This document shows positions 15,320 to 53,188 of a DNA stretch of 55,334 nt, in pieces. Position 1 is the stretch's first letter, and every line of letters starts with the position of its first letter. A model generated the notes under the pieces. It was not told the DNA's origin and made no database searches. It worked only from the letters and a program-made list of their open reading frames with translations. The DNA is taken from positions 1 through 55,334 of the forward strand of contig WRKR01000017.1 of NCBI GenBank assembly GCA_009782175.1, read 5' to 3'. A program made the position numbers and the translations under genes. Source of the stretch: Cystobacterineae bacterium (GTDB taxonomy: Bacteria > Myxococcota > Myxococcia > Myxococcales > Myxococcaceae).

Positions 15320-15675
15320 GGAGGCCCCTCCCAAACGTAGGGGGCTGCCCTCCAGGGTAGAGGGGCAGGGGGTGCGTCTAGGCAGGCCTCAATTCAAACT
15401 ATAAACCTTGACAGCAAAAAGCATGCCATGCTAACCAGCTGAAAAAGTGGTCAGAAAACGGTGAATGTGGGCGGCGGGGTTGGTTATTTTTGGACGCCTG
15501 TCTCAACATTGGATGACAACAGCATTGCTCACTCATTGTTCAAGAGGCGACATAGGGTGTTGGGTGGTATTAAATAGGGCCTAACCCTTAATAGATAGCG
15601 AACAAGCTCTTCTCACTGGGCGGCTGGGTCCGAGGAGTATTGCGGCTTTTTTTTAGCAGTGAAGGTGTGTTCATT

Positions 15676-50682: not shown

Positions 50683-51456
50683 ATGAGAGGTGTTTTAGAA
50701 GCCAATGCCCTGGTGAAGCAATTTAGAAAGCACAAAGTCGTCAACAACGTCTCCTTCCGCGTCTCCCCCGGAGAGGTGGTGGGCCTCCTGGGCCCCAACG
50801 GTGCAGGAAAAACCACCAGCTTTAACCTTGTTGTGGGCTTGCTTAAACCCAACGCCGGCCACGTCCACCTCTCCGGCAAAAATTTAACAGGCTTGGCCCT
50901 GCACCAGCGCGCACGCTTGGGGCTGGGCTATTTGCCTCAAGAAGCTTCCATATTCCGAAAATTAACCGTAAGGCAAAACTTCCTTGCCGTCCTGGAGCTG
51001 GACAAAGCGTTGAGCAAAGCCCAACGAGAGGCACGCGCACAAAGCATGTTGGCGGAATTTTCCCTGGAAAGCGTGCATGACAACCTCGGCGAAAACCTCT
51101 CCGGCGGAGAAAGGCGACGCACGGAAATTGCACGCGCTTTGCTCGCCAACCCCGCCATTCTCCTCTTGGATGAGCCTTTCGCCGGCGTGGACCCTATTAA
51201 TATTGCTGAGCTGCAAAAAGAAATTGCTCACCTTAAAGCCAGAGGTTTGGGCATATTGATTACGGACCACAATGTACAAGACACTTTGCGTGTTTGCGAC
51301 CGGGCCTACCTCATTGTCCATGGAAAAATACGCGAAGAAGGCTCCCCTCAAAAACTCAGCCTCTCCCCCCTCGCACGCAGCCTCTATTTGGGCGAAAACT
51401 TTCAGCTCCAACCCCCGGCTGCCTCTATACAAAATACAGGCCCCTCTACCTCATAG
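50683..51456 (+). CDS. lptB: LPS export ABC transporter ATPase LptB
   Basis: LptB drives LPS extraction from the inner membrane with LptF and LptG. ATG 50683 has GGAGG at 50674-50678 and gives 257 residues. ABC motifs: Walker A GPNGAGKTT, Q-loop YLPQEASIFRKL (LptB-specific), signature LSGGERRRTEIARAL, Walker B ILLLDEPFAGVDPI and switch TDHNV. The C-terminal YLGENFQL is typical of LptB. The tail after it (about 15 residues) is a little extended. lptF and lptG are not in the window. Confidence 0.96.
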   Translation: MRGVLEANALVKQFRKHKVVNNVSFRVSPGEVVGLLGPNGAGKTTSFNLVVGLLKPNAGHVHLSGKNLTGLALHQRARLGLGYLPQEASIFRKLTVRQNFLAVLELDKALSKAQREARAQSMLAEFSLESVHDNLGENLSGGERRRTEIARALLANPAILLLDEPFAGVDPINIAELQKEIAHLKARGLGILITDHNVQDTLRVCDRAYLIVHGKIREEGSPQKLSLSPLARSLYLGENFQLQPPAASIQNTGPSTS

Positions 51457-51626
51457 CTGGCCACGGCCCACGGCCCCCTCCTTCTCCAAAAACAAGCCCC
51501 CTGGTTATTTCCATAGGTTATGAGCCTTCAGCAAAAGCCTGGCCCAGCACGCAAACAGGCTTTTCCTGTCTGCTCCCGCACAATAGCGCTAGGGTTTGGG
51601 CTTCCCCTTTGCTATTCTCCAAAAGT

Positions 51627-51641
51627 TGGCACGAATTTTGT
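51627..51641 (+). promoter_or_regulatory. Sigma-54-type promoter upstream of rpoN
   Basis: TGGCAC (51627-51632), five bases, then TTGT (51638-51641) matches the sigma-54 consensus TGGCAC-N5-TTGC except the last C. The preceding T and following G also fit (TTGGCACG). Transcription would begin near 51652, just before AAGGAGA at 51657-51663 and the rpoN start. Autoregulation of rpoN is inferred. Confidence 0.5.
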
Positions 51642-51676
51642 CTGATATAGGCTTTTAAGGAGAATGGCGACAAACC

Positions 51677-53188
51677 ATGGCGATGGAAATGCGACAAAGT
51701 TTGAAGCTTGCACAGCAGCTGGTGATGACGCCTCAGCTGCAGCAGGCCATTAAACTGCTTCAGCTCTCCCAGTTGGAGCTTCTGGAGCAACTCCAAGAAG
51801 AAATAGAGCAAAACCCTGTTTTGGAGGCCACAGAAGAAAAATTGGAGCTGGAGGCAGAGCATTATGGGCCCGGGGAGCTTTCACTGGAGGCGGATATGGC
51901 GGAGGCTCCGGCGGACTTTGAGCCTCCTGTGCCGGAAAATGCCCCTGAGTATACGGCGCAGGACAACCCTCCGGAAATGGACTGGGATGCTTTTCTCAAC
52001 AGCGACCAATTCCGGGAGGCGCTGCCTGAGGACAAAGGCAAATATACAGAGCAGGACGAGTCCTCAAGCTTCGAAAGCCATGTGGTTAAAGGCACAAGCC
52101 TCTTTGAGCATTTGCTCGCTCAGGTGCGCCTCATGCGCTTCAACGACGCGGAGCAGCGCATTGCCCTGCTCATTTTGGGCAACCTCAACGACGACGGTTA
52201 TTTGGTGCTGCCTGCGCTGGAGGGGGATCCGCTGATTGCCCTGGCGCATGAGGCCGATGTCCCCCTGTGGCTTGCAGAGCGCGTCTTGCAGCACATTCAA
52301 CGCCTGGAGCCTTTGGGTTGCGCGGCCAGAGACTTGCAAGAGTGTTTGCTGCTCCAACTCAAAACCCAACCTTCTGCGCAAACACGCTTGCTCAGCACCA
52401 TTATTAAACGCCACCTCAAACTCCTCGAGTCCACCAACTTGCCGGCCATTGCCAAGGAAATGAAAGTCCCCCTGGCCCAGATAGTTGAATGCTCCAAATT
52501 GCTTAAAACCCTAAACCCCAAACCAGGGCGCAACCACTCCGGGGAGGATGCTCCGCATATTACGCCGGACGTGTATATTTATAAACATGGGGAGAGTTAT
52601 ACCATTGTACTCAATGACAATGGCCTCTCTAAACTGCGCATTTCCCATACCTATAGGAATGCCTTGAGGCAGGGCAGCTTGTCGCCCGGCGCTACCAAAA
52701 ACTTTGTCCAGGAAAAACTCAAAAGCGCCCTGTGGCTTATTCGCTCCATCCACCAACGCCAGCGCACCATTTATAAGGTGACAGAAAGCCTCATCAAGTT
52801 TCAGCTTGAATTCCTCGAAAAAGGCGTGGACCATTTAAAGCCGCTCATTTTGCGCGATATTGCGGAGGACATTGGCATGCACGAGTCCACCATTTCCCGC
52901 GCCACCACCAACAAATATGTGCATACGCCTCAAGGTATTTTTGAGTTGAAATATTTCTTCAACTCCTCCATCTCCTCCAGCGCAGGAGGAGAAGAGCTCG
53001 CCAGCCAAGCCGTTAAAAGCCACCTCCGCCAGCTTGTGGCACAAGAGCACCCCCAAAAACCTTATTCCGACCAAAAACTCGCAGAGCTCCTCCAAGCCAA
53101 AGGCATCGATATTGCCCGCAGAACCATTGCAAAATATAGAGAAATGCTGGGCATCCTCCCCTCCAGCAAACGCAAACGCTATTTTTAG
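51677..53188 (+). CDS. rpoN: RNA polymerase sigma-54 factor
   Basis: A 503-residue sigma-54. Region I is the Gln/Leu-rich activator-interacting domain (MRQSLKLAQQLVMTPQLQQA, LSQLELLEQLQEEIEQNP), region II is acidic (about 55-125), and region III holds the core-binding and HTH parts (LRDIAEDIGMHESTISRATT). The RpoN box is ARRTIAKYREMLGI near residues 478-491. A second ATG at 51664 directly after AAGGAGA is out of frame, so the ribosome-binding site serves ATG 51677 at a longer spacing of about 13. The lptB-rpoN-hpf order is the common proteobacterial one. Confidence 0.97.
   Translation: MAMEMRQSLKLAQQLVMTPQLQQAIKLLQLSQLELLEQLQEEIEQNPVLEATEEKLELEAEHYGPGELSLEADMAEAPADFEPPVPENAPEYTAQDNPPEMDWDAFLNSDQFREALPEDKGKYTEQDESSSFESHVVKGTSLFEHLLAQVRLMRFNDAEQRIALLILGNLNDDGYLVLPALEGDPLIALAHEADVPLWLAERVLQHIQRLEPLGCAARDLQECLLLQLKTQPSAQTRLLSTIIKRHLKLLESTNLPAIAKEMKVPLAQIVECSKLLKTLNPKPGRNHSGEDAPHITPDVYIYKHGESYTIVLNDNGLSKLRISHTYRNALRQGSLSPGATKNFVQEKLKSALWLIRSIHQRQRTIYKVTESLIKFQLEFLEKGVDHLKPLILRDIAEDIGMHESTISRATTNKYVHTPQGIFELKYFFNSSISSSAGGEELASQAVKSHLRQLVAQEHPQKPYSDQKLAELLQAKGIDIARRTIAKYREMLGILPSSKRKRYF

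Follow-up and report, generated by a model that had tools for sequence, protein, structure and literature searches.

Negative autoregulation has been reported for rpoN1 of Rhizobium etli and for rpoN of R. leguminosarum (PMC3916325 and PMC3538637, cited jointly for the two species), and a 2025 survey describes predicted sigma-54 sites before rpoN in several classes, which it reads as autoregulation, while in other phyla it terms the phenomenon "not significant" (PMC12316311). A related form of repression is reported from E. coli, where sigma-54 sites that overlap sigma-70 promoters repress by binding competition, in vitro as well, and where argT, chaC, mdfA and patA carry a sigma-54 motif within the footprint of a sigma-70 promoter (PMC4551910). 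According to the same report the repression-linked motifs all retain a C at -12, and loss of this C accompanies activator-independent transcription. In Myxococcus xanthus sigma-54 is reported to be vital, for a reason given there as not known (PMC2725144), the expression of rpoN is reported to increase through development (PMC6791715), and a study of sigma-54 promoters of natural-product genes terms the GC at -12 a hallmark and reports that its replacement by TT impaired them (PMC7910581).

Here we describe a sigma-54-type site upstream of rpoN in a 55,334-nucleotide stretch of DNA (the window) from a Cystobacterineae bacterium. As in Rhizobium, the arrangement that we propose would have sigma-54 lower the expression of its own gene; it differs from the Rhizobium case in lying in the Myxococcaceae, where it consists of a family-wide site on a putative housekeeping promoter, with no C at -12. 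The four E. coli motifs are alike in their placement, however they keep the -12 C and sit at genes other than rpoN. The classes named in the survey share with our locus a sigma-54-type site before rpoN, and Myxococcia is not among the names it gives, an absence that the noncanonical -12 box might explain. The Nla28-regulated natural-product promoters of M. xanthus belong to the same family and can be held against the same consensus, TGGCACG-4N-TTGC(T/A), but as reported they have the -12 GC together with upstream activator repeats, whereas the rpoN site has neither the GC nor, in the window's genus, a conserved upstream block. Self-regulation of rpoN is already known, and it is its family-wide overlapping form in the Myxococcaceae that appears to be new. 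In the literature covered (most subscription papers lay outside its scope) we found no description of a Myxococcaceae rpoN site, and the main text of the M. xanthus Cappable-seq paper makes no mention of rpoN.

The rpoN locus and its host genome

The window comes from a genome of 2.70 Mb in 65 contigs (G000), whose RpoN has Pyxidicoccus, Citreicoccus, Corallococcus and Myxococcus as its closest named relatives (64-65% identity) and which whole-genome sets place in the family of those relatives, the Myxococcaceae; it is a reduced genome of that family, and an initial guess of a Desulfovibrio-like host was given up because its close relatives were all Myxococcaceae. We found 6 strong sigma-54 activator domains in it, four accompanied by receiver domains and two by FHA domains, and 6 in each of the congeners G001 and G002; the complete 9.0-Mb genome of a Myxococcus-group relative (G086) has 53 enhancer-binding domains above 170 bits. 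The protein encoded by rpoN is a full sigma-54 factor, which matches TIGR02395 above cut-off and has the Sigma54 AID, CBD and DBD domains. Its gene follows lptA and lptB and is itself followed by an hpf gene, lptB preceding it on the same strand at 89 of the 91 family loci, and when we looked for a terminator between lptB and rpoN none was found.

In this gap lies TTGGCACG-AATT-TTGT, which ends 35 bases before the rpoN ATG (Table 1). The sequence is as the original prediction had described it, TTGGCACG-N4-TTGT ahead of an AAGGAGA Shine-Dalgarno, and some of its numbers shift by one: it began the site at 51627 and so left out the first T, it counted 36 bases to rpoN, and the transcript start that it gave as 51652 becomes 51653 when the -12 letter is counted as position -12.

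Table 1. Coordinates of the features discussed, numbered from the first base of the window
Feature	Position	Strand	Remarks
lptB, upstream of rpoN	50683..51456	+	TIGR04406; same strand as rpoN
Putative sigma-A -35, TAGGGT	51590..51595	+	exactly 17 bases before the -10; matches TTGACA at 2/6, weak
Putative extended sigma-A -10, TGC-TATTCT	51610..51618	+	predicted +1 near 51625, adjoining the -24 box
-24 box of the sigma-54-type site, TTGGCACG	51626..51633	+	TTGGCA invariant, 91/91 loci, 24 genera
Spacer between the boxes, AATT	51634-51637	+	
-12 box, TTGT	51638..51641	+	TTG at all 91 loci; ends in T, where the canonical letter is C and most relatives have A
Predicted +1, should sigma-54 polymerase initiate here	51653	+	12 bases downstream of the -12 letter
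Shine-Dalgarno of rpoN, AAGGAGA	51657..51663	+	
rpoN, RNA polymerase sigma-54 factor	51677..53188	+	503 aa
Probable small RNA, ~119 nt	15402-15284	-	predicted +1 at 15402; has a strong hairpin of terminator type; z-score of the fold -5.9

Conservation of the site

Taken on its own the window says little about the site, as the pattern occurs in it 7 times at two or fewer mismatches where 10.9 matches are expected, which is not significant, the rpoN site being the single match with one mismatch. For this reason we turned to conservation among relatives, using 96 genomes of the family, which gave 91 rpoN 5' ends with readable upstream sequence from 24 genera. Five genomes were left uncounted: in G014 and G001 a contig ends, G062 holds a C-terminal piece only, G104 gave no match, and in G004 the motif is present but fused to a shortened rpoN start. 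Upstream of rpoN, TTGGCA[C/T]-N5-TTG was found at every one of the 91 readable loci. Measured against TGGCACG with its GG at a fixed spacing from -12, the -24 box shows TTGGCA at 100%, then C or T, then mostly G, and the GG-N10-G spacing of sigma-54 sites is likewise kept at all 91 loci. In G002 all 16 bases of the site are the same and lie inside an identical run of 18, against 52% identity over the gap as a whole. Across the family the fully or near-fully conserved columns are those of the boxes and of the -10 TA, with most other flanking columns weak. Moreover, a search of 12 genomes with TTGGCACG-N4-TTG gave 32 matches, compared with 9 in backward controls, and 11 of the 32 were the rpoN site, the twelfth genome having TTGGCACA there; in four genomes (G006, G012, G053 and G086) the rpoN site was the sole match.

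The check that the original prediction had proposed, to look for the two boxes in close relatives, thus came out in its favor, and from this comparison we consider the candidate sigma-54-type site confirmed as real. That it is a functionless chance match, as its lack of significance within a single window might have suggested, we give practically no credence: with 91 of 91 loci and a conservation profile that mirrors the -24 and -12 boxes while the flanks diverge, conservation rules this out, unless the site is kept for some unrelated reason. An ancient delta-proteobacterial origin of the site was unsupported, since the 77 rpoN upstream stretches that we collected outside the family showed no general site, and the 6 of them whose best site reached a shuffle p of 0.035 or less compare with about 3 expected.

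Two of the uncounted genomes merit a word. The rpoN of the congener G001 is not lost, as we had considered; its contig breaks off soon after lptB, and the genome keeps its strong activator domains. In G004 (L238) rpoN is apparently without its first codons and the motif runs into about codon 19, which appears to be either an assembly error or a real truncation.

The -12 position departs from the canonical letter

Within the conserved TTG-N of the -12 box the last letter is A at 82 loci, T at 6, G at 2 and C at 1, so that the TTG is universal while the C which would complete the GC hallmark, and which the E. coli repressed set retains, is absent from 90 of the 91. We had thought of a family-wide preference for C at -12 as a yardstick, and dropped it because the genome-wide counts in 6 relatives were too close to chance and did not themselves point to a preference for C (12 TTGCW against 7 in backward controls; TTGAW gave 18 against 0). 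Matches to the pattern in the window's own genome lie mostly within open frames. Among its repeats is a 15-mer, TGGCATAGCTGTTGT, that recurs often (on contigs C14, C28, C46 and others, with spacings of, for example, 84, 87 and 246 bases); these copies are probably repeats within coding sequence rather than promoters, because the three loci that we checked (L178, L182 and L183) all fall within long open frames.

A second sigma-54-like site in the window, TGGCATG-CTTT-TTGC, lies on the minus strand at 15428-15414, before a probable small RNA (L239; Table 1). At the corresponding locus G002 retains the cores TGGCA and TTTTTGCT, together with the region of the predicted start, the body of the RNA and a block further upstream, and no match was found in G001, G022 or G086. 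The Rfam matches of this RNA are weak, all of them under gathering scores. It is a candidate sigma-54-dependent small RNA, and in its canonical TTGC and in the upstream block kept in G002 its site contrasts with the TTGT site of rpoN.

A putative housekeeping-type promoter element overlaps or adjoins the site

Across the family a promoter-like element, TRGACG-17-TANNNT and usually with a TGN, overlaps or directly precedes the -24 box. By a strict test the TA stands 4-5 bases ahead of TTGGCAC at 88 of 91 loci; of the remaining three, L225 has it shifted by one and the two from the window's genus have it 8 bases farther upstream. A -35 matching TTGACA at 4/6 or better at a spacing of 17 is present at 74/91 loci, or 18.1 of 24 genera when weighted by genus, and the 2000 shuffles (mean 0.74, maximum 5) never reached this number; no other spacing between 8 and 29 gave more than 6.2 genera. 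Similarly, a TG one base before the -10 occurs at 73/91 loci (17.0 of 24 genera, weighted; shuffle mean 1.6, reached by 0 of 2000). These genus counts of the -35 and the TG concern related genera and are not independent events; the two features are independent of the alignment, on which the anchor (the TA plus the final T, which itself belongs to TTGGCAC) depends. Four genera (g1, g17, g20 and g22) have no 4/6 match at the -35; of the 6 loci listed for g5 a single one has it, and in g7 its spacing is 18. The -35 counterpart is TRGACG in most genera and TGGGGT in G002, and at the window's own element a strict sigma-70 scan reported no promoter. The sigma-54-type site thus falls inside the footprint of the predicted housekeeping promoter, with the reservation that in the window's genus the -10 is displaced upstream and the -35 is weak. 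In genus g5 (L186, L194, L225 and L226) we also noted a second box resembling TGGCAC/T about 30 bases upstream, inside the sigma-A spacer, which may be either a further contact for sigma-54 or a coincidence.

Leader geometry and the upstream region

With the sigma-54 start set 12 bases after the -12 letter, we compared the position of the best Shine-Dalgarno at all 91 loci. It lies 3' of this predicted start at 72 of them, the window included, where a transcript made by sigma-54 polymerase would as a result be translatable. At the other 19 it begins 5' of the start and would be missing from such a transcript or cut; these loci make up 8 genera (g2, g5, g6, g7, g10, g17, g20 and g40), which leaves 16 of the 24 genera, the window's among them, with a translatable leader. 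From the predicted sigma-A start the Shine-Dalgarno is kept at 90/91 loci.

Further upstream we looked for an activator site at 80-150 bp and found no conserved block, a result that applies to the lptB-rpoN gap of one congener pair. From 61 to 150 bases upstream of the site, the window and G002 agree at 31 of 90 positions (a single genome pair), and the gap scores 0.283 over its first 110 bases, against 0.294 for shuffled sequence. By comparison, in the 60 bases adjoining the site, where the promoter-like element lies, 37 positions agree, and the site itself agrees at 16/16. An inverted repeat at 51522-51575 was set aside as an activator site, being imperfect and not kept in G002, and a match in the gap to an RNA family (a microRNA model) was far under its gathering score and was taken as chance.

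Discussion

Taken together, these comparisons suggest that the conserved site is more plausibly a brake on rpoN than its driver. The original prediction had the site drive the gene, and this part found no support: the -12 GC is lacking almost throughout, the Shine-Dalgarno would be lost in a third of the genera (8/24), and the window's genus shows no conserved block upstream, while the putative housekeeping promoter that overlaps or directly precedes the site is, judged from its sequence, the better candidate for driving rpoN. Because of this predicted promoter, the uncoupling of rpoN from the upstream lpt genes that had also been proposed is plausible. The natural interpretation of a family-conserved sigma-54-type site before rpoN is that sigma-54 feeds back on this gene, and here the original prediction holds in so far as "self-limiting" was one of its two options, next to self-activating.

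The explanation that we favor, with a confidence somewhat better than even, is homeostatic autorepression by occlusion. A sigma-A-type housekeeping promoter would transcribe rpoN through the -35 and -10 elements described above, and a high-match site for the sigma-54 holoenzyme would lie on or beside its start point; once sigma-54 is abundant, the holoenzyme would bind there as a stable closed complex and exclude sigma-A polymerase, and the resulting fall in rpoN transcription would amount to a negative feedback that holds the sigma-54 level steady. Against this stand the absent C at -12, the weak -35 in the window's genus, which the strict sigma-70 scan passed over, the genera in which the -35 match is missing, and the 16 genera, the window's included, in which a sigma-54 transcript would retain its Shine-Dalgarno and the site may serve as a promoter. 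We hold our confidence near this level because the E. coli result on the -12 C (PMC4551910) favors a promoter that bypasses activators. The reported rise of rpoN during M. xanthus development is likewise unexplained by simple homeostasis, and leaves room for an activated promoter.

Such an activated promoter would be of the ordinary sigma-54 kind, at which an enhancer-binding protein switches rpoN on under conditions such as starvation or development and adds positive feedback to basal sigma-A transcription. The boxes and their GG-N10-G spacing fit this, five of the 6 strong enhancer-binding proteins of the window genome have the Fis-type HTH, the developmental increase (PMC6791715) agrees with it, and so do the adequate leaders in two thirds of the genera (16/24). 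We nevertheless think it unlikely, given a -12 letter other than C at 90/91 loci when the GC to TT change is reported to have impaired M. xanthus promoters (PMC7910581), the loss of the Shine-Dalgarno in 8 genera, and the lack in the window's genus of a conserved upstream block at activator-site distance. The same missing block, together with the conservation of the -12 letter itself (A in 82/91) and the correlation reported in E. coli between low-level bypass transcription and a less conserved -12 C (PMC4551910), would suit a bypass promoter, in which the repressive fork junction, loosened by A or T at -12, allows a low constitutive transcription of rpoN with no need of an enhancer-binding protein. 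This we consider quite improbable, as bypass is described as weak and rare in E. coli, the Shine-Dalgarno would again be lost in the 8 genera, and an overlapping predicted housekeeping promoter is already present. 

The departure at -12, being itself conserved, might also indicate that the site serves some other regulator and merely resembles a sigma-54 promoter; we give this a slim chance, since 11 of 12 consensus positions and the exact sigma-54 spacing are found directly before the gene for sigma-54 in 24 genera, and an inverted-repeat scan of the gap found no palindrome within the site stretch itself. Finally, occlusion and bypass might be combined in a two-way device, in which the sigma-54 holoenzyme would shut the overlapping sigma-A promoter while leaking activator-free rpoN transcription, a proposal that we regard as very doubtful at present. 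If true, sigma-54, which is reported to be essential in M. xanthus, would be never lost and never in excess, and the Myxococcaceae would carry, with A or T for C at -12, a natural bypass promoter that is conserved across the family.

Whichever of these applies, TTGGCAC-N5-TTGA before rpoN offers a single short target for telling autorepression, activation and bypass apart, and the conserved absence of the -12 C provides a test of the rule reported from E. coli, that this C keeps sigma-54 silent. Moreover, the site bears on how a cell with many activators, such as the 53 domains of the Myxococcus-group genome, sets its level of sigma-54.
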